NCBI GenBank assembly: GCA_035512495.1
Contig: DATKDW010000051.1
Location: 1-36,300, forward strand
Reading direction: 5' to 3'
DNA from: Acidimicrobiales bacterium
GTDB lineage: Bacteria; Actinomycetota; Acidimicrobiia; Acidimicrobiales; CADCSY01
DNA: 36,300 nt
Position numbers and translations under genes: made by a program. Shown here in pieces: positions 24,738 through 34,390 of this stretch; the first letter of the stretch is position 1, and each line of letters begins with the position of its first letter. A model generated the notes under the pieces. The model did no database searches and was not told where the DNA came from. It saw only the letters and a program-made list of their open reading frames with translations.

Positions 24738-24762
24738 CCCGCGGGAGCTGTCGAGCGACATC

Positions 24763-24878
24763 GACATCGTTCTGGCACCAGAAACGCGCCGTCGGGCAGC
24801 GCGATGTTGGTGCCATAACCGAGGCGACATTGTTCTGGCACCAGAAACGCGCCGTCGGGCAGCGCGATTCTGGTGCCA
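24763..24878. repeat. Two tandem 53-base palindromic repeat units
   Basis: Units at 24763-24815 and 24826-24878 are 50 of 53 bases identical, with a 63-base period. Each holds the 14-base palindrome TTCTGGCACCAGAA and an inner GCGC...GCGC pair. They lie between the 3' ends of two convergent operons. Open frames cross them in several registers, but none looks like a gene. The surrounding gap (24738-24899) contains nothing else. Confidence 0.85.
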
Positions 24879-24882
24879 GAAC
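24832..24882. terminator. Near-perfect 21-base inverted repeat (second repeat unit)
   Basis: Arms at 24832-24852 and 24862-24882 pair at 20 of 21 positions around the nine-base loop CGTCGGGCA. As RNA on either strand this gives a very stable hairpin between convergent transcripts, so bidirectional termination or 3'-end protection is plausible. It lacks a T-tract. Confidence 0.5.
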
Positions 24883-24899
24883 CACGGACCGCGTCCGGG

Positions 24900-25829
24900 T
24901 CAGGAAGTGGGACGGTCGACGGGATCGGTCGGGGCGGGGGGTGCGGTCTTGAGCTGGCGCTCGACCTCCTCCCACGTCAACGTCCCGGCCGCCGTCGCGA
25001 CCGGTGCCCGCCGATCGAGCGGCATGCCACCGGCGCGGTCATCCTCCTGCTGCTTGGTGGCGAAGCGGATGAACAGCATGGCGATCACGAACCAGAGGTA
25101 GAAGCCGCCGACGGTCTTCATCACCAGGCCGGCCAGCTGCTGGTCGTGGGCCACCGACATGCCGGCGAGGCGGGTGGGCACGTCGTAGGCCTTGTAGACG
25201 ACGCCCTCGGCGAAGGTCAGCCACCCGGCGGGCACGGTCGGGATGATCGACTGCATGAACAGGAAGATCATCTGCACCGGGAGGGTGAATCGCAGCTCCG
25301 GCAGCGGGCCCGCCACCGGGGTCCACATGATGAGGGCGGCGGCGACCACGACCACGTGCACCAGGTAGTGCAGCGGCGCACTGGACGCCGACGCGTTGAC
25401 CACGCCAGGGATGTGGGTCGCGGCGACCACGGCGTTGAAGATCAACGTGGCAGTGACCGGTCGGGTGAGGAAGCGCAGCACCCGATACGGCACCCCGCTG
25501 CCCACCACCATCCGGGCGAGCCAGGTGGGCGTCGCCAGCAGGACCATCGGGGGGATCACCAGCGACAGCAGCAGGTGCTGGACCATGTGGACGCTGTAGA
25601 GGTAGCCCTCGGCGATGTCGTGCACAGGCCAGTCCGAGGCGACCCACAGCAGCACCAGGCCGGCGACGAACCAGCGGACCTGGCTGGCGGTCACCACCGG
25701 CTCGTCAGGACGGGTGGCCGTGGGCCCGATGCGGGTGATGGCGTACCAGTAGAGGAGGGCCAGGCCCCCGACCAGCACCCAGACCTCGGGGTGCGGGGTG
25801 AACCGCCAGGGGTCGGCCTGGGCGGCCAT
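24900..25829 (-). CDS. ctaG: Cytochrome c oxidase assembly protein, CtaG (caa3) family
   Basis: A 309-residue polytopic membrane protein of the caa3-type CtaG family found in Gram-positive bacteria, linked to maturation of the CuA/CuB copper sites. The N-terminus has DPWRFTPHPEVWVLVGG. Later come HMVQHLLLSLVIPPMVLLATP, where His and Pro are family-conserved, and MWTPVAGPLPELR; about seven helices in all, then a polar C-tail. The start is uncertain: the ATG at 25829 is used, but a GTG at 25865, two bases after the subunit IV stop, is possible and adds 12 residues. It is the last gene of the oxidase operon. Confidence 0.85.
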   Translation of the reverse strand: MAAQADPWRFTPHPEVWVLVGGLALLYWYAITRIGPTATRPDEPVVTASQVRWFVAGLVLLWVASDWPVHDIAEGYLYSVHMVQHLLLSLVIPPMVLLATPTWLARMVVGSGVPYRVLRFLTRPVTATLIFNAVVAATHIPGVVNASASSAPLHYLVHVVVVAAALIMWTPVAGPLPELRFTLPVQMIFLFMQSIIPTVPAGWLTFAEGVVYKAYDVPTRLAGMSVAHDQQLAGLVMKTVGGFYLWFVIAMLFIRFATKQQEDDRAGGMPLDRRAPVATAAGTLTWEEVERQLKTAPPAPTDPVDRPTS

Positions 25830-25867
25830 GGTGCTGCCGTGGACCAGCTCCGCCGAGGCACCCACGG

Positions 25868-26236
25868 TCAGCCCGACGAGCCCCAGAAGGAGAACGTGGC
25901 GAGGAACACGACGTAGACCGCGGCGGCCAGGGCGAGACCGGAGTAGAAGAGCCTGGTGAAGAGGTTGGAGTCGAAGCGCAGGTGCATGAAGAACGCGGCG
26001 ACGACCCAGAACTTGACCGCCATCATCAGCAGGAGCCCGGTGATCACGATCGTGTTCCCGAGGTCGTCCTCGAGGTAGTAGAAGAGGACCTCCACGGCGG
26101 TGATGGCGCCCAGGATCAGGGCGATCGTCGCGTACTTGCGGTCGTTGGGGTGCTCGTGGCCCGCCCCGGTGACCGTCTCCTCGTGCGCCGTGGGCGCCGA
26201 TGCGGGATCCTGCTCGAAGGTCTCGGTCTCGCTCAT
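25868..26236 (-). CDS. ctaF: Cytochrome c oxidase subunit IV (COX4_pro type)
   Basis: A 122-residue small oxidase subunit. About 35 acidic N-terminal residues precede three membrane helices: YATIALILGAITAVEVLFYY, NTIVITGLLLMMAVKFWVVA and the last from LFYSGLALAAAVYVVFLATF. The motif KFWVVAAFFMHLRFD between helices 2 and 3 is diagnostic of subunit IV of caa3 and quinol-oxidase type enzymes. It sits nine bases after ctaE. Its role in the complex is structural. Confidence 0.9.
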   Translation of the reverse strand: MSETETFEQDPASAPTAHEETVTGAGHEHPNDRKYATIALILGAITAVEVLFYYLEDDLGNTIVITGLLLMMAVKFWVVAAFFMHLRFDSNLFTRLFYSGLALAAAVYVVFLATFSFWGSSG

Positions 26237-26245
26237 GGTCGCCTC

Positions 26246-26890
26246 TTAGGGGACGAGGTAGATGACGGTGAAGATGATGATCCAGACGATGTCGACGAAG
26301 TGCCAGTAGAGGCCAACGATCTCGACCGTCTCCGAGCGCCCCGTGGGCAGTGAGCCCCGGTGCGACATCACGAACAGGCTCAGCAGCATCACGATGCCGA
26401 TCGTGACGTGCGCGCCGTGGAACCCGGTGAGCACGTAGAACGCCGAGCTCTGGATGTTGGTCGTGAAGCCCAGGCCCTCCCGGTAGAAGGCCGTGAACTC
26501 GTAGACCTGGCCGGCGACGAAGGTGGAGCCCAGCAGTGCGGTGGTGAGCAACCAGGTGCGGAGCTGGCGGTGGTTGCCCCGCTGGATCGCCGACAGGGCC
26601 AGCACCATGGTCAGCGAGCTCATCAACAGGATGAACGAGCTGACCGAGGTGAAGGGGATGTCGTAGAGCTCGCGCACCTCTGGCCCGCTGACGACCTCCT
26701 TTCCCCGGTAGAGCAGGAAGGTCGAGATCAGCCCGCCGAAGAGAAGGCACTCGGACCCGAGGAAGGTCCACATCGCCATCTTCTCGTTGGAGAGGCCGGT
26801 GCTCGTGTGGTGCCCGCCTCCGGCGTGCTCGGCGTGCGGCTCGTGCCCACCGGGGGGCACCACCATGGTCGACTGCTCGGTGGTGCTCAC
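26246..26890 (-). CDS. ctaE: Cytochrome c oxidase subunit III
   Basis: A 214-residue subunit III with about five helices. About 35 His-rich residues (GGHEPHAEHAGGGHHTS) precede helix 1, MAMWTFLGSECLLFGGLI. The family motifs GFHGAHVTIGI and YWHFVDIVWIIIF are intact. It stabilises the catalytic subunit and helps keep proton uptake active. Its start overlaps the ctaD stop by four bases (ATGA). The His-rich lead could bind copper, but this is speculation. Confidence 0.94.
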   Translation of the reverse strand: MSTTEQSTMVVPPGGHEPHAEHAGGGHHTSTGLSNEKMAMWTFLGSECLLFGGLISTFLLYRGKEVVSGPEVRELYDIPFTSVSSFILLMSSLTMVLALSAIQRGNHRQLRTWLLTTALLGSTFVAGQVYEFTAFYREGLGFTTNIQSSAFYVLTGFHGAHVTIGIVMLLSLFVMSHRGSLPTGRSETVEIVGLYWHFVDIVWIIIFTVIYLVP

Positions 26891-28917
26891 GAGGGCTCCT
26901 CCGTGGTGCCGGCGGCGACGGGGTCGGCCGCGGTGCCGGGGTCGTCGTCATCGTCGACCCGGTCGGGCTCGACGTGGCCGTGGCCGGCGTCGGGGTCGAC
27001 CGACGGCTCGAGGCTCCAGCCGTAGACGGATGCGATCAGGACGAGGCCGCCGAGGGCCGACAGCCAGTAGGTGAAGAGGAGGCCGTAGGCGATCAGTGGC
27101 AGGCCCAGGGCCAGCACGATCGGCCAGTACGACGGCGACGGCAGGTGGATCGACTCGGGCGGGGGTGCCGAGGTGCCACCTTCCTCGGGACCCACCACCG
27201 ACATCCACTCGTAGTCATCGCGCCGAACGATCACGCCGTGGTCGTCCTCGCCGTACTTGCGGTGCCACCACTCGTCGAGCTGGCTGACCGTCGGCTCGAT
27301 GTCGAAGTTGTGGGCCGGTGGCGGGGAGGAGATGGACCACTCGAGCGTGCGGGCGTCCCAGGGGTCGGCGCCGGCGGGCGGGTTGGCGCGGCTCTTCACC
27401 ACGTTGAAGATCCAGAGGAGGAACGACGCGGCGATCAGGTACGAGCCCCACGTCGCCAGCTGGTTCATCAGGTCCCAACCCATGCCCTCGGCGTAGGTCG
27501 CGGTGCGGCGGGGCTGGCCCTGGAGCCCGAGGATGTGCATCGGCCCGAACGTGAGGTTGAAGCCGGCGAACATCAGCCAGAAGTGAGCCTTGCCGATGGT
27601 CTCGCTCAGCATCCGCCCGAAGACCTTTGGCCACCAGAAGTAGACGCCGGCGAAGATGCCGAACATCGATCCGCCGAAGAGCACGTAGTGGAAGTGGGCG
27701 ACGATGTAGTACGTGTCGTGCTGCTGGGTGTCGTGCGGGGCGACCGAGTGGGTCACGCCCGAGAGGCCGCCGATCACGAACTGAGACACCAGCGCCACCG
27801 CGAAGAGCATGGGCACGGTGAAGTTCAGCTTCCCGTTCCAGAGGGTGGCGATCCAGTTGAAGATCTTCACGCCCGTGGGCACGGCGATGAACATCGTCGA
27901 CAGCGAGAAGGCCGCCACCGACACGGGGCCGAGCCCGGAGGCGAACATGTGGTGGGCCCACACGCCCCAGCCCATGAACCCGATGGCCACACCGGAGAAC
28001 ACCATGAACGGGTAGCCGAACAGCGGCTTACGGGCGAAGGCCGGGATGACCTCCGAGATGATGCCGAACGCCGGCAGGATCAGGATGTAGACCTCGGGGT
28101 GGCCGAAGATCCAGAAGAGGTGCTGCCACAGCAGCGGGTCGGCACCCTCGGCCACGTTGAAGAAGTTGGCGCCGAAGAGCCGGTCGAACATGAGCAGGAA
28201 CAGCGCCACGGTGATGACCGGGATGGCGAAGAGCAGCAGGAACTGCGCCACCAGGCTCATCCACACGAAGATCGGCATCCGCATGAGCGTCATGCCGGGG
28301 GCCCGCATGTTGATGACGGTGACGATCAGGTTGACCGCGCTCGCCAGCGAGGCGATGCCCGTGATCTGGAGGCCGAGCGTCCAGAAGTCCTGGCCCATCC
28401 CGGGCGAGTAGGCGAGGTTGTTGCTGAGGGGCGCGTACGAGGTCCAGCCGTTGTCGGGGGCGCCCCCGAGGAAGAAGCTGGAGTAGAGGAAGAGCCCGCC
28501 CGCCAGGAAGATCCAGTAGCTGAGGGCGTTCAGCCGGGGGAAGGCGACGTCGCGCGCCCCGATCATGAGCGGGATCAGGTAGTTCGCGAAGGCGGCCAGC
28601 ATCGGCATGATCACCAGGAAGACCATGGTGGTGCCGTGCATGGTGAAGGCCTGGTTGTAGGCCTGCTCGCTCAGCACCTGTCCGTCGGGTGTGGCCAGCT
28701 GCGTGCGGATGAGGAGCGCCTCGAGGCCGCCGATGGCGAAGAAGACCATCGCGGTGGCGCCGTACATGATGCCGATCTTCTTGTGGTCGACCGAGGTCAG
28801 CCACGAGCGCCAGCCGGTGGTGGCGGTGGGTCGCCGGAAGACGCCGAGGGGCTCGCGCCGCTCGGCGTCTTCCCCTGCCGTCAGCTCGAGGACGGGACGG
28901 TCGTCGGTCAGTGCCAT
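26887..28917 (-). CDS. ctaD: Cytochrome c oxidase subunit I (A1-type)
   Basis: A 676-residue catalytic subunit with every key residue: low-spin haem ligands His94 (FTMHG) and His410; CuB ligands His273, His322 and His323 with cross-link Tyr277 (GHPEVY, AHHM); haem a3 ligand His408 (AHFHYVLFGG); K-channel Lys351; and Glu275 of GHPEV, which marks the A1 branch. Beyond the 12 core helices it has a polar stretch with WHRKYGEDDHGV and two more helices near residues 590-640 (YWPIVLALGLPLIAYGLLF), then an acidic tail, so it is about 120 residues longer than minimal subunit I. This is the true oxidase; compare the degenerate paralogue at 31774-33378. Confidence 0.96.
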   Translation of the reverse strand: MALTDDRPVLELTAGEDAERREPLGVFRRPTATTGWRSWLTSVDHKKIGIMYGATAMVFFAIGGLEALLIRTQLATPDGQVLSEQAYNQAFTMHGTTMVFLVIMPMLAAFANYLIPLMIGARDVAFPRLNALSYWIFLAGGLFLYSSFFLGGAPDNGWTSYAPLSNNLAYSPGMGQDFWTLGLQITGIASLASAVNLIVTVINMRAPGMTLMRMPIFVWMSLVAQFLLLFAIPVITVALFLLMFDRLFGANFFNVAEGADPLLWQHLFWIFGHPEVYILILPAFGIISEVIPAFARKPLFGYPFMVFSGVAIGFMGWGVWAHHMFASGLGPVSVAAFSLSTMFIAVPTGVKIFNWIATLWNGKLNFTVPMLFAVALVSQFVIGGLSGVTHSVAPHDTQQHDTYYIVAHFHYVLFGGSMFGIFAGVYFWWPKVFGRMLSETIGKAHFWLMFAGFNLTFGPMHILGLQGQPRRTATYAEGMGWDLMNQLATWGSYLIAASFLLWIFNVVKSRANPPAGADPWDARTLEWSISSPPPAHNFDIEPTVSQLDEWWHRKYGEDDHGVIVRRDDYEWMSVVGPEEGGTSAPPPESIHLPSPSYWPIVLALGLPLIAYGLLFTYWLSALGGLVLIASVYGWSLEPSVDPDAGHGHVEPDRVDDDDDPGTAADPVAAGTTEEPS

Positions 28918-28933: not shown

Positions 28934-29965
28934 TCATCGCAGCGTCTCGAGGTAGGCGTACAGGGCGTCGATGTCGGCCTCGCTGAGCTCGCCGATCACC
29001 ATCAGGGAACCGGCCTTGCGCTGCGGGTCGCGCAGCCAGGCCTCGACCTCGTTGCGGTCGTTGAGGTCGTAGATGCACCCGGCGAAGCAGTCGCGGGTGA
29101 AGAGGTGGGTCAGGTCGGGCGCCGGCGGGGAGGTCTCCGAGACCACCTCGTACTGGCCCCGCACGTCGTGGCAGGCAGCGCAACCACGGGTCTCGAACAG
29201 CTCGAAGCCCTCGGCGGCGAGGCCGTCGGTGGGCGCCTCGGGGAGCTGGTGCTGGCTCTCGACCCAGGCGTCGAAACCGGCCTCGTCGTGTGCCACGACC
29301 TTCAGGCGCATGTTGGCGTGGGAGGCGCCGCAGAACTCGGCGCACTGGCCGGAGTAGACGCCGGGCTCGTCGGCCTCGATGGTCCAGGTGTGGACGCGGC
29401 CGGGGGTGACGTCGCGCTTGCCGTTGAGGCGAGGCGACCAGAACGAGTGGACGACGTCCTCGGAGGTCATCTCCAGGAACACGGGGCGCCCGGCGGGGAT
29501 GTGCAGCTCGTTGGCGGTGACGATGTCGCCGTGCTCGGGGTAGGAGAAGGCCCACCAGTACTGCTGACCGGTGACCTCCACCAAGATGGACTCGTCGGGG
29601 CGCTTGTCGTCGAGCTCGAAGATGACCGGCACGGTGAAGACGGCCATCACCGCGAGCACGAGGGCGGGGAGGATCGTCCAGCCAACCTCGAGGCGGGTGT
29701 TGCCGTGCGTCTGCTCGGGCCAGGCATCGTCGCCGTCCTTGCGACGGAACTTGATCACCGCGAAGACGATCGCGCCCTGGACGAGCACGAAGACGGCCAC
29801 CGCCACCCAGAACACGGGCACGAAGAGGTTGTGGACCGAGCGGGCGTAGGGGCCGGCCGGGTCGAGCGCGTCCTGGGGGGCGTCGCCGGCGCAGGCGCCC
29901 AGCACGAGCACCATCGTCGCGGGGCCGAGCCAGCGGAGCAGGCGGCGGGACTGGAGAACCTTCAT
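28934..29965 (-). CDS. ctaC: Cytochrome c oxidase subunit II with fused cytochrome c (caa3 type)
   Basis: A 343-residue lipoprotein-like subunit II. The signal peptide ends in the lipobox VLGAC (about residues 21-25). Two helices follow, then the CuA cupredoxin domain with the ligands in SGQCAEFCGASHANM. The C-terminal 100 residues form a cytochrome c domain with the haem site GCAACHDVRG, so the enzyme is caa3-type and carries its own cytochrome c. The start is the ATG at 29965, eight bases after CAGGAG; the frame opens earlier (30067) but that extension precedes the signal peptide. ctaD follows after 16 bases. Confidence 0.95.
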   Translation of the reverse strand: MKVLQSRRLLRWLGPATMVLVLGACAGDAPQDALDPAGPYARSVHNLFVPVFWVAVAVFVLVQGAIVFAVIKFRRKDGDDAWPEQTHGNTRLEVGWTILPALVLAVMAVFTVPVIFELDDKRPDESILVEVTGQQYWWAFSYPEHGDIVTANELHIPAGRPVFLEMTSEDVVHSFWSPRLNGKRDVTPGRVHTWTIEADEPGVYSGQCAEFCGASHANMRLKVVAHDEAGFDAWVESQHQLPEAPTDGLAAEGFELFETRGCAACHDVRGQYEVVSETSPPAPDLTHLFTRDCFAGCIYDLNDRNEVEAWLRDPQRKAGSLMVIGELSEADIDALYAYLETLR

Positions 29966-30083: not shown

Positions 30084-31112
30084 TCACGGGGTGCCGTGGG
30101 GGTCGTCCGCGGCCGGCTCCTGGGCCACGAGGGTCCCCTGCATGGTGGTGGGGTGCACGTCGCAGATGAAGGTGTGCTCGCCGGGAGGAGCGTTGATCAG
30201 GACCGTCGCGGCGTTCCCACCGGGGATGATCTCCGTGACGGCGTCGTCGAGGCCCTGGATGTGGACGTTGTGCTGGACGGTCTCGTCGTCGTGGTTCTCG
30301 AAGACGATCGTCACGTCGGTGTCGGCGTCGAGCGTCACCACCTCCTGGTCGAAGCCGGTCGCGCTCGACGCCGAGATGACGACGTCGGCGTCGGACTCGA
30401 CGTCAGCGTGGTCGTCGCCGTAGTGGTGGAACTCGCGCTCGCCGGCGACTGCGCCGATGATGCCCCCACCCAGGAGGGCGATCACCCCGAGGACGACGAT
30501 GCCGCTGATCAGCGAGGAGCTCAGCTGCGGCCGGTTGGCCAGGATCGCGGCGATGCTCAACACGAGGGCGGCGATGAGGATGGCGACCACGGAGGACCCG
30601 GTCTGCGGCAGCGCCAGCAGCACCCGGGAGAACGCCAGCACCACCACCGCGAAGCCGATCACGGCAAGGGCGGGGATCTCGAGGGGGAACATGATCCGGT
30701 TCCGGAGCCCCTGGTTTGCGCCGGGGTCGGACGAAGCCCGCTCGGCCCATGCCTGGACCATCCACTCGACGAGGACGACGCCGAGGAGGGCGAGGCCTGC
30801 GTAGAGAAAGGCGTTGCCGGCGGCGAAGCCGATGACGGTGAGGGCCACGCCGACCGCCGACAAGGCGGGCCAGAGGGCAGGGAGAGCGTGGGGGTGGGGT
30901 ACCTCGGTGACGGTGGCGCCTTCGGCGGGCGCAGCGACGTCTCCGTCGCGGACCACCGTCGCCGTGGTCCCGAGGACCGCGGCGGCGACACCGGCGAAGG
31001 CCAGGACGATGGCCCCGTACTCCTCGCCACTGGTGGCGACGAAGTAGACGCCGGCAGCCACGAAGGCCAGGAGGGCGATGGCGTACCAGAGCTTGGCGCC
31101 GGTGGTGATCAT
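30084..31112 (-). CDS. Seven-helix membrane protein with C-terminal type 1 copper (cupredoxin) domain
   Basis: 342 residues. About seven hydrophobic segments fill residues 8-223 (such as LWYAIALLAFVAAGVYFVA, AFLYAGLALLGVVLVEWMV and LISGIVVLGVIALLGGGIIG). After a His/Asp-rich hinge (EFHHYGDDHADVESDAD) a cupredoxin domain runs to the end, with the ligand set His281 (QHNVHIQG), Cys317, His320 and Met324 (FICDVHPTTMQG). The domain should face outside and carry electrons. Its start overlaps the COX III-like stop by four bases (ATGA), so it belongs to the COX I-like module; ctaC follows after 118 bases. I do not know a characterised protein with this layout. The copper domain is secure; the role is inferred. 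Confidence 0.8.
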   Translation of the reverse strand: MITTGAKLWYAIALLAFVAAGVYFVATSGEEYGAIVLAFAGVAAAVLGTTATVVRDGDVAAPAEGATVTEVPHPHALPALWPALSAVGVALTVIGFAAGNAFLYAGLALLGVVLVEWMVQAWAERASSDPGANQGLRNRIMFPLEIPALAVIGFAVVVLAFSRVLLALPQTGSSVVAILIAALVLSIAAILANRPQLSSSLISGIVVLGVIALLGGGIIGAVAGEREFHHYGDDHADVESDADVVISASSATGFDQEVVTLDADTDVTIVFENHDDETVQHNVHIQGLDDAVTEIIPGGNAATVLINAPPGEHTFICDVHPTTMQGTLVAQEPAADDPHGTP

Positions 31113-31774
31113 GTGGAGCCAGGACCTCCCTCGAGGAACCAGACGCACCACCACACCACGACGCCCGCGAGGGCGACGAAGTGCCAGACGATGGCGGCGG
31201 CGGCGACGAACTCGCTGTTGCGCGGGCTGAGCTGCCCGCCGAGGGCCCGGAAGCCCATGACCACGAACACGGCGACGGCGGCCACCACCATCAGGAGGTG
31301 GGTCACCGTCACCAGGTACATGGCGTTGGCCACCGCCGACTCACCGGCGGCCAGGCCGAGGACGTCCCATGAGAACGACAGGGCGTTCACGAAGGCCAGG
31401 CCCAGGAGGATGGTGATCCCGACAGCCAGGTACAGCTGGCGCCGCTCACCGATCTTGACCGCGGCCACAGCCCACTGGGCGGTGACCATCGACATCAGGA
31501 GGGTGCCGTAGGCCACGACCAGGGGGACGTTGGGCAGGTCGGCCCCGAGCCACTCCTCCCCGGCACCGGTGGTGGCCTCCCGGGCGGCGAAGTAGCTGGC
31601 CAGCACGCCAGCGAGGAGCATGATCCCGGCCGCGACGGCGAAGAGGGCGCCCACCACGACGGTGTTGCGGCGACGGGGCTCAGGCGCCGGGGGAAGGCCC
31701 AGCAGGGACATCGGAGCCCCCTCTTCGGTCGCCGCTGCGGCGCCGGAGCGGGAGACGTCGGTGGAGACGGCCAT
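31109..31774 (-). CDS. COX III-like membrane protein (divergent paralogue)
   Basis: A 221-residue protein with about five helices aligning with oxidase subunit III: VVAYGTLLMSMVTAQWAVAA, the VTHLLMVVAAVAVFVVMGFR helix in place of GFHGAHVTIGI, and the ending IVWHFVALAGVVVWWCVWF, like YWHFVDIVWIIIF. An N-terminal polar stretch of 36 residues precedes helix 1. The canonical GFHGAH motif is not kept. It shares one base with the COX I-like stop (TGATG) and overlaps the cupredoxin gene by four bases, so the three are coupled. It probably pairs with the degenerate COX I-like protein. Confidence 0.78.
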   Translation of the reverse strand: MAVSTDVSRSGAAAATEEGAPMSLLGLPPAPEPRRRNTVVVGALFAVAAGIMLLAGVLASYFAAREATTGAGEEWLGADLPNVPLVVAYGTLLMSMVTAQWAVAAVKIGERRQLYLAVGITILLGLAFVNALSFSWDVLGLAAGESAVANAMYLVTVTHLLMVVAAVAVFVVMGFRALGGQLSPRNSEFVAAAAIVWHFVALAGVVVWWCVWFLEGGPGST

Positions 31775-33378
31775 CAGGCGGGGACCTCCGTGTCGCTGCG
31801 GGCGTCGAGCACCGGGGTGGGTGAGGTGACGACGGGGACGGTGCCGACGAAGTTGCCCGGCGGGGGCGGTGAGGTCGTGGCCCACTCGAGGGTGTGGCCA
31901 CCCCAGGGGTCGGCGGTGGCCCGCACGCCATTCCCGCGGCCCACGCTCGAGAGGAGGGAGCCGACAGCGACGAGGACGCCGAGGATGCCGAGGACGCCGC
32001 CGACGAGGCTCACCACGTTGAGGCCGACGAGGAGGTTCCCGTCGAGGGTCGCCGAGCGCACGGCCTGGTCCTCGACGAGGCCGGCCACGAGGTCCGGGGC
32101 GGCCAGGAGGAGGGCACCGAGGAACGTGAGGGCGAAGACGGCCTTGCCGGCGAGCTCACCCAGGTGGACGCCCCAGATCTTGGGGGCCCAGTACCAGAGG
32201 GCGGCAAAGGCGCCGAGGACGGCACCGCCGTAGAGGGTGAGGTGGATCTGGCCGACCTGCCAGACCATGCCGTCGAGCTCGAGGGGCTCGATCACCGACG
32301 CCGCGCCGGCCAGGGCCCCGAGGAAGAGGAGCACCACAGCGCCGAGCGCGAGCAGCAGCGAGGACGAGAGGGTGAGACGTCCCCGGCGGAGGGTGTCGCC
32401 CAGCAGGCCGACGAGCGCCAGGGCGGGCAGGAGCGATGCCAGGCCCATGGCGACGAAGACCAGGCTGCCGATCCCGCTGGTGGCCTCCTCGAGGCGAACG
32501 AAGGCGCCGAAGCCGAGGGCGCCCATGGCACCGAGGACGATGATCCCCGCGGCGTGCACCCGGTAGCGGCTGGCGCCGATCACCGGCACGATCTCGAGGG
32601 CCACACCGGCGGCCGGCACCACCAGCAGGTAGACGGTCGGGACCGACCAGAACCAGGAGATGTCGGCGTAGGACCCGACCTCGCCGCCGTAGCGGTGGGC
32701 GATGAGGAGCTCGATCAGACGGGCGATGAGCACGGGGCTGGTGAGCAGGGTGAGGCCACCGCCCACGAGGATCGACCAGGTGAACAGCGGCGTGCGCAGC
32801 AGCGTCATGCCGGGGGCCCGCTCGGTGACGATCGTGGTGAGCACGCTGCCGAGGGCGACGCAGGTGGCCGTGGCGAGGGCGATCAGCGACAGCAGGTAGA
32901 GGTCGACGGCCACCGCGTCGCCACCCGTGATGCCGCCGTCGGCCGCGTAGGCGCCGACCAGGACCAGGCCCGAGGCCAGATAGGTCCAGTAGGCGGCCGC
33001 CGCGCCCCGGGGGAAGGCGATGTCGGGGGCACCGACCTGCAGCGGGACGAGGTAGGTGGCCAGGCCAAGGAAGAACGGGACCAGGAACAGCAGGACGGCG
33101 ACCTCGCCGTGGAAGGTGTGGAGCTGCTCGAAGCTGCCCGAGGAGACGAGGGCCAGGCCGCTGTCGATGCGCTCGACGCCGAGGATGGCGCCCACCACGC
33201 CCCCCACCACCAGGAACGCCAACGACGTGACGAGGTACATGCGCCCCACCCGCTTGTGGTCGGCGGTGGAGAGCCAGCCGGCCAGGCCCGCGAGCTCCGA
33301 CGGGAGGACCGGCACGTCGGTCGTCGTGGAGCCGGCCGGAGCGGTGCCGGGGGCCTCTGTGGTCTCGGTCATCGACAT
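31774..33378 (-). CDS. COX I-like protein lacking the oxygen-reducing centre
   Basis: A 534-residue, roughly 12-helix relative of oxidase subunit I. Shared landmarks are ADHKRVGRMYLV, TYLVPLQVGAPDIAFPR, ERAPGMTLLRTPLF, YWAPKIWG and the tail DPWGGHTLEWATTSPPPP. Low-spin haem ligands are kept: His90 (HTFHGE) and His379 (IHLTLYGG). The CuB His-Pro-Glu-Val-Tyr is Val246-Pro-Thr-Val-Tyr250, the His-His pair is gone (GAFVRLEEATSG), the haem a3 ligand is Gln377, and the K-channel Lys region reads SLLPALALVG. It cannot reduce oxygen in the usual way. The frame is intact, with ordinary codon use. It is translationally coupled to the COX III-like and cupredoxin genes. Confidence 0.85.
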   Translation of the reverse strand: MSMTETTEAPGTAPAGSTTTDVPVLPSELAGLAGWLSTADHKRVGRMYLVTSLAFLVVGGVVGAILGVERIDSGLALVSSGSFEQLHTFHGEVAVLLFLVPFFLGLATYLVPLQVGAPDIAFPRGAAAAYWTYLASGLVLVGAYAADGGITGGDAVAVDLYLLSLIALATATCVALGSVLTTIVTERAPGMTLLRTPLFTWSILVGGGLTLLTSPVLIARLIELLIAHRYGGEVGSYADISWFWSVPTVYLLVVPAAGVALEIVPVIGASRYRVHAAGIIVLGAMGALGFGAFVRLEEATSGIGSLVFVAMGLASLLPALALVGLLGDTLRRGRLTLSSSLLLALGAVVLLFLGALAGAASVIEPLELDGMVWQVGQIHLTLYGGAVLGAFAALWYWAPKIWGVHLGELAGKAVFALTFLGALLLAAPDLVAGLVEDQAVRSATLDGNLLVGLNVVSLVGGVLGILGVLVAVGSLLSSVGRGNGVRATADPWGGHTLEWATTSPPPPGNFVGTVPVVTSPTPVLDARSDTEVPA

Positions 33379-33493: not shown

Positions 33494-34390
33494 TCACACC
33501 CCGGAGCGAAGCAGCTGGTCGAGGGCCATGGCCCCGAACAGGAGGCTGATGTAGGTGATGGACCAGGTGAAGAGGCGCATCGCCCTCGCCGGGGTCGAGT
33601 CCCGGAGCAGCTGCACCGAGAACCAGGTGAAGATCGCACCCAGCACGACCGCAGCCACGAGGTAGATGGCCCCCATGCCCGCCACTGGCGAGAAGACCAG
33701 GGTGAGGGCCCAGAGGAGGAGCGTGTAGCCGAGGATCCGGATCGAGGTGGTGCGCAGGCTGGCCACGGCGGGCAGCATCGGGATGTCGGCAGCGGCGTAG
33801 TCGTCTCGGTAGCGCACGGCGAGGGCCCAGAAGTGAGGCGGGGTCCAGTAGAAGATGATGCCGAAGAGCACGATCGGCGCCCACGACAGCGAGTTCTGCA
33901 CCGCTGCCCAGCCCACCAGGACCGGCACGGCCCCGGCAGCGCCGCCGACGACGATGTTGCTGCTCGACGTGCGCTTCAGCCACAGCGAGTAGACGAAGAC
34001 GTAGAACGCCGTGGCGCTGACGGCCAGGACGGCGCTCAGGAGGTTGACCGTGCCCCAGAGCAGGGCGAACGCCGCCACCTCCAGCCCGATGGCGAAGACG
34101 AGGGCGTCGCGCGGAGCGATGAGGCCGGTGACCAAGGGACGGTTCTGGGTCCGCTTCATGATGGCGTCGATGTCGCGGTCGACGTACATGTTGATGGCGT
34201 TGGCGCCACCCGCGGCCAGCGCGCCGCCGGCAAGCGTGGCGAGGATGAGCCACAGCGAGGGCAGGCCCCCCGCGGCGACGATCATGGTCGGCACCGTGGT
34301 GATGAGGAGGAGCTCGATGATCCGCGGCTTGGTGAGGGCGAGATAGCCCGAGAGCCGGGTGCCGAGCGCCGGTCGGTCGACCTGGAGCAC
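33494..34390 (-). CDS. ctaB: Protohaem IX farnesyltransferase (haem O synthase)
   Basis: A 298-residue UbiA-family membrane enzyme that adds farnesyl diphosphate to haem B to give haem O. The two Asp-rich motifs are present: NAINMYVDRDIDAIMKRTQN near residue 66 and RYRDDYAAADIPMLP near residue 195. Nine hydrophobic segments are expected and fit. It starts at a GTG six bases after TAGGCT. The gene is first in the minus-strand run leading to the oxidase genes and divergent from ctaA, which carries out the next step. Confidence 0.95.
   Translation of the reverse strand: MLQVDRPALGTRLSGYLALTKPRIIELLLITTVPTMIVAAGGLPSLWLILATLAGGALAAGGANAINMYVDRDIDAIMKRTQNRPLVTGLIAPRDALVFAIGLEVAAFALLWGTVNLLSAVLAVSATAFYVFVYSLWLKRTSSSNIVVGGAAGAVPVLVGWAAVQNSLSWAPIVLFGIIFYWTPPHFWALAVRYRDDYAAADIPMLPAVASLRTTSIRILGYTLLLWALTLVFSPVAGMGAIYLVAAVVLGAIFTWFSVQLLRDSTPARAMRLFTWSITYISLLFGAMALDQLLRSGV

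Follow-up and report, generated by a model that had tools for sequence, protein, structure and literature searches.

Three oxidase-like genes inside a caa3 operon

The window, i.e. the whole stretch of 36,300 nucleotides analysed here, carries a complete caa3 oxidase operon on its minus strand. Between ctaB and ctaC-ctaD-ctaE-ctaF-ctaG of this oxidase lie three coupled genes, psCOX1, psCOX3 and a psCtaF-cupredoxin fusion (P4), which we refer to as the ghost module (Table 1). psCOX1 adjoins ctaB, and a divergent ctaA is located beside it. The psCOX1 reading frame is unbroken, and the plus strand across the same interval is interrupted by stops. Its TGA stop and the ATG of psCOX3 overlap by one base (tgATG), and the psCOX3 stop in turn overlaps the P4 start (ATGA). 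An earlier note on this DNA had described psCOX1 as an intact gene in a coupled operon. Coordinates and coupling were right, but the COX3- and CtaF-like nature of the next two genes had been missed, so that the unit to be considered is the whole ghost oxidase.

Table 1. Positions of the ghost module, its putative haem-ligand codons and the surrounding caa3 genes in the window.
Feature	Position	Strand	Description	Support
psCOX1	31774..33378	-	534 aa, 12 TM; COX1 paralogue, predicted to be catalytically dead	Pfam COX1, ligand table, AlphaFold2 model, fold matches
psCOX1 His90	codon 33109-33111	-	putative low-spin haem position	
psCOX1 His379	codon 32242-32244	-	putative low-spin haem position	
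psCOX3	31109..31774	-	divergent COX3 paralogue; start overlaps psCOX1 stop	Pfam COX3 5.9e-8
psCtaF-cupredoxin fusion (P4)	30084..31112	-	CtaF-like 4 TM, then 3 TM, then type-1 cupredoxin	
ctaC	28934..29965	-	subunit II, CuA domain and cytochrome c fused (caa3 type)	Pfam COX2, COX2_TM, Cytochrom_C; CoxB 206 bits
ctaD	26887..28917	-	intact caa3 subunit I, all ligands, CtaF-like tail	CtaD_CoxA 724.7 bits, above cut-off
ctaE	26246..26890	-	subunit III	Pfam COX3 6.1e-18
ctaF	25868..26236	-	COX4_pro-type small subunit	Pfam COX4_pro 5.3e-10
ctaG	24900..25871	-	Caa3_CtaG assembly protein, start likely inside the stretch	Pfam Caa3_CtaG 2.8e-40
ctaB	33494..34390	-	haem o synthase, next gene upstream of psCOX1	NCBIfam PRK04375 393.8 bits, above cut-off

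Some features of the surroundings should also be mentioned. The tail of the intact CtaD is Cyt_c_ox_IV-like, i.e. CtaF-like (2.6e-6), though the operon has a separate COX4_pro-type subunit. At 24762-24883, between an ABC-type permease gene and the end of ctaG, there are two 59-base direct repeats with 93% identity, each of them an inverted repeat, which could represent a terminator or a mobile repeat. The other respiratory genes of the genome were checked by family search. At L175 (G000 contig C26), the genome's bc complex has a split cytochrome b; a Rieske-like protein and genes containing CxxCH haem motifs are its neighbours.

Fold and ligand sites of the ghost proteins

The Pfam COX1 profile is covered completely by residues 43-463 of psCOX1 (E 5.9e-59); no Pfam family other than COX1 was matched in this protein, and the sequence gave no SURF1 match. 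A BLASTP comparison with the neighbouring CtaD revealed 31% identity (E 7e-69), in line with the homology to the intact ctaD that had been noticed by eye, and the NCBIfam model of the actinobacterial aa3 CtaD (NF050116) scored 249.7 bits, which is below its curated cut-off of 880 bits. Structure prediction and superposition, both proposed in the earlier note, yielded a full-length COX1 fold: the AlphaFold2 model (pLDDT 85.5, pTM 0.89) can be superposed on COX1 structures end to end over about 475 residues with a Z score of about 41. Going by these profile matches and the predicted structure, psCOX1 is by descent a member of the haem-copper oxidase subunit I (COX1) family.

The alignment with CtaD bears out every ligand substitution that the earlier note had listed. 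The low-spin haem ligands are kept, with His94 and His410 of CtaD corresponding to His90 and His379 of psCOX1, and Tyr277 is retained as Tyr250. The CuB ligands are gone (His273 is Val246 and His322-His323 is Arg-Leu), the active-site Glu275 is Thr248, the K-channel Lys351 is Leu and the haem a3 ligand His408 is Gln377. The protein also lacks the Mg/CuA interface residues, the haem formyl Arg and the propionate Arg pair. Replacement of the CuB and haem a3 ligands by residues elsewhere in the helices, which would have undermined the earlier reading, was ruled out by the alignment together with the full-length fold match, and none were found in the AlphaFold2 superposition. Judged by the CuB histidines, the haem a3 histidine, the lysine and the glutamate, psCOX1 is predicted not to be a functional haem-copper oxygen reductase, and it possesses a putative bis-His low-spin haem site.

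The best match of the psCOX3 family profile is CtaE of M. tuberculosis (4.4e-28), and a profile of the transmembrane part of P4 matches CtaF of the same organism (4.4e-6). The C-terminal domain of P4 is recognized by Pfam Cupredoxin_1 (4.5e-11) and has in the window the His/Cys/His/Met set of a type-1 copper site (HN...CDVHPTTM). In the AlphaFold2 model of P4, seven transmembrane helices are followed by a beta barrel that resembles auracyanin and CuA domains. As far as sequence comparison goes, the ghost module is made up of what were presumably subunits I, III and IV in an aa3-type ancestor; the CuA-bearing subunit II is missing.

Loss of ligands across the psCOX1 family

Ligand positions were tabulated for 87 psCOX1 rows, in which at least three contigs are entered twice under two names. 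Not one of the 87 rows has two or more of the three CuB histidines, and the K-channel lysine is likewise absent from all of them; the active-site glutamate is found in 9/87 and the haem a3 histidine in 11/87. Both low-spin haem histidines are present in 21 of the 87 rows, and the pair is incomplete or missing in the other 66. According to the tree with CtaD as outgroup, the pair was kept in basal lineages and in the window's family, several of them with a cupredoxin, and most of the remaining lineages have lost it, with at least six changes. Within the window's family it occurs in 8 of the 9 rows in which both positions are readable, the exception being G006 with Ala at the His90 position. The conservation of His90 and His379 in orthologues, the lack of which the earlier note would have taken as a refutation, thus holds for the window's family and the basal lineages and fails for the psCOX1 family as a whole.

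A sub-group consisting of L048, L050, L052, L055 and relatives has both low-spin histidines, the haem a3 histidine and in most cases the glutamate, with Arg at CuB. Judging from these residues, its members could in principle bind two haems and no copper.

Ancestry and selection

psCOX1 is monophyletic with a support of 100/100. An origin as a recent duplicate of the operon's own ctaD was rejected by the AU test (p about 1e-92). A grouping with the actinobacterial aa3 CtaD is allowed (p 0.22), and the free tree places psCOX1 beside a Chloroflexi-type clade (72/79), with long branches in this part of the tree. The psCOX1 family descends from a second oxidase whose oxygen-reducing site was lost long ago, and this site is gone in all of its members.

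For close pairs, dN/dS is 0.21-0.36 in psCOX1, 0.13-0.39 in psCOX3 and 0.25-0.28 in P4. All three genes are therefore under purifying selection, which for psCOX1 agrees with the earlier assumption that the gene is selected, and a pseudogene is ruled out by these values together with the conserved intact frames. We compared the two faces of the protein, with a topology taken from the helix prediction and from the known orientation of COX1. The mean frequency of the top residue in psCOX1 is 0.61 in cytoplasmic versus 0.41 in periplasmic loops, whereas CtaD shows no such bias (0.77 and 0.81, respectively). The C-terminal tail and the cytoplasmic loops of psCOX1 are conserved and the periplasmic loops are not.

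Distribution and link to the caa3 oxidase

The distribution of the module is based on a P4 profile search, as the scan with the psCOX1-family alignment used the TLEW tail motif, returned mostly ordinary oxidases and served for names and outgroups only. Full-length P4 was found in 202/298 Acidimicrobiales genomes and in no genome outside this order in a sample of 396 genomes of the phylum, where the matches beyond the order consist of the C-terminal part alone; in several of the outside genomes the C-terminal helix domain of P4 is located near a caa3 operon. A plasmid search returned only annotated ordinary CtaD among the best matches listed. The gene order ctaB-psCOX1-psCOX3-P4-ctaC-ctaD-ctaE-ctaF(-ctaG) is repeated in about 30 families of Acidimicrobiales.

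Within this order the ghost module co-occurs almost perfectly with the caa3 oxidase. All 22 ghost-negative genomes tested are without a caa3-type CtaD (best identity 47-53%), and 36 of 40 ghost-positive genomes have a caa3 CtaD with 63-77% identity, the rest being G015, G040, G034 and G578. In G015 and G040 the contig ends fall inside ctaC/ctaD. G034 has ghost genes, with a stop inside its P4, and a caa3 CtaD was not found in this genome. The three G034 loci (L041, L232, L236) have no caa3 operon downstream, and the module is possibly decaying there after loss of the oxidase. In other orders of the class Acidimicrobiia the caa3 operon occurs without ghost genes, which indicates that a caa3 oxidase is not in general need of the module. 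Two records labelled as Bifidobacterium breve MAGs (L136, L144) carry Acidimicrobiales-like caa3 operons, in L144 together with ghost genes; these labels are probably wrong.

Possible function of the ghost module

As the constant features are the fold, the partner subunits, the cytoplasmic side and a firm link to caa3 rather than anything redox-active, we favor a non-catalytic partner of the caa3 oxidase. In this reading psCOX1, psCOX3 and P4 would fold together as a COX1-COX3-CtaF-like unit, which may dock to the living caa3 oxidase or help to build it via its conserved cytoplasmic face and would owe its retention to protein contacts rather than to catalysis. In the lineage of the window it can probably still bind one low-spin haem at the bis-His site together with one blue copper; both could be ancestral remnants that may still pass electrons and would be dispensable in most of the Acidimicrobiales. 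We judge it about as likely as not that the three genes encode a dead oxidase which serves caa3 through protein contacts, either structurally or in its biogenesis. The more specific version, namely a dead oxidase of subunits I, III and IV that ancestrally had a blue-copper domain for CuA and is kept order-wide as an obligate non-catalytic partner of caa3, is put forward tentatively, with somewhat less than even confidence. The ghost genes of G034, for which no caa3 CtaD was found, and the caa3 operons without ghost genes in other orders count against a caa3 partner. Furthermore, co-occurrence and operon position would look the same for an assembly factor and for a structural subunit.

An electron relay, in which a haem at His90/His379 of psCOX1 and the blue copper of P4 would carry electrons from a periplasmic donor to caa3 or quinone, had already been considered in the earlier note with respect to the haem. 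All nine fused cupredoxins retain His, Cys, His and Met, and the domain tracks the His pair, being present in 8/15 loci with the pair versus 1/about 27 without it (Fisher p 4e-4, for loci that are phylogenetically non-independent). The pair itself is retained in the window, the window's family and the basal lineages, and a relay is possible for the window's lineage. On the other hand, the cupredoxin was lost in most siblings within the window's own family, the window psCOX1 lacks the periplasmic face as well as the interface residues and arginines mentioned above, and the His pair was lost repeatedly. Since it is kept in so few rows, a haem relay is not the general function, and the His table rules out a universal role of this kind across the order. 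Overall, we consider the relay an unlikely explanation of the module.

psCOX1 could also be an assembly factor that is absent from the mature enzyme and acts together with CtaB and CtaA as template or chaperone for haem insertion into CtaD or for early assembly. The position next to ctaB and beside ctaA, the tie to caa3 and the cytoplasmic location of the conserved surface would fit such a role, which we nevertheless regard as rather improbable. The arrangement of ctaB next to an oxidase is common also without ghost genes, and one would hardly expect a mere chaperone to come with COX3- and CtaF-like partners. In addition, the genome of the window has a canonical Surf1 gene on another contig, which rules out that psCOX1 substitutes for an absent Surf1.

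A new buried polar site, which would bind a small molecule or line a proton or ion path, seems very unlikely. At the four former ligand columns Gln reaches 41, 40, 66 and 35%, compared to 1% on average in the remaining columns of the helices, and the only helix column richer in Gln is already Gln in CtaD. Hence the positions that once held the CuB and haem a3 ligands and the Glu (residues 246, 248, 295 and 377) look as if they formed a buried Gln cluster. However, His and Glu can each turn into Gln in one step, so that part of the enrichment can be explained by shared ancestry, and in the window protein these positions are occupied by Val, Thr and Arg, with Gln at just one of them. A slowly decaying relic without function would agree with the stepwise disappearance of the CuB, haem a3 and low-spin haem ligands and with the fast divergence, but it is highly improbable in view of dN/dS values clearly below 1 for each of the three genes, intact frames, a gene order fixed in about 30 families and the near-perfect link to caa3.

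Few membrane proteins are as conserved or as well studied as COX1, whose oxygen site as a rule does not change. Here, a monophyletic family in most Acidimicrobiales genomes has lost this site throughout and has kept the fold, the partners, the place in the operon and the cytoplasmic surface. If the module is indeed a partner of caa3, it would represent a pseudoenzyme within a respiratory terminal oxidase and would offer a natural means of telling the structural role of COX1 apart from its catalysis. The ghost genes may well be annotated automatically as cytochrome c oxidase subunit I, and therefore oxidase counts from Acidimicrobiales metagenomes may be inflated.

Comparison with known systems

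The earlier note knew of no described system of this kind, and in the open-licence PubMed Central papers searched we likewise found no description of such a dead COX1 family. The best profile match for all three ghost proteins is the actinobacterial aa3 oxidase CtaD-CtaE-CtaF of the III2IV2 supercomplex of Mycobacterium and Corynebacterium. Its CtaD has the same fold of 12 transmembrane helices as psCOX1 and a similar C-terminal tail (DPWGG.TLEWATTSPPP..NF). In contrast to this oxidase, the ghost lacks CuB, the haem a3 ligand, the K channel and the CuA subunit, and its CtaF-like subunit is fused to a blue-copper cupredoxin in some lineages. With the operon's own caa3 oxidase (CtaC-CtaD-CtaE-CtaF), psCOX1 shares superfamily and transcription unit, but the CtaD of this oxidase is catalytically complete, and psCOX1 did not arise from it by recent duplication. 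The position of the low-spin bis-His haem is shared with NorB and other haem-copper variants. NOR retains the high-spin haem histidine and three histidines for FeB. Unlike NorB, psCOX1 has neither the FeB histidines nor the high-spin haem histidine in the CuB and haem a3 columns. Finally, the P4 domain has the fold and the His/Cys/His/Met set in common with type-1 cupredoxins of the auracyanin type, but unlike auracyanin it is fused to seven transmembrane helices, four of which are CtaF-like.
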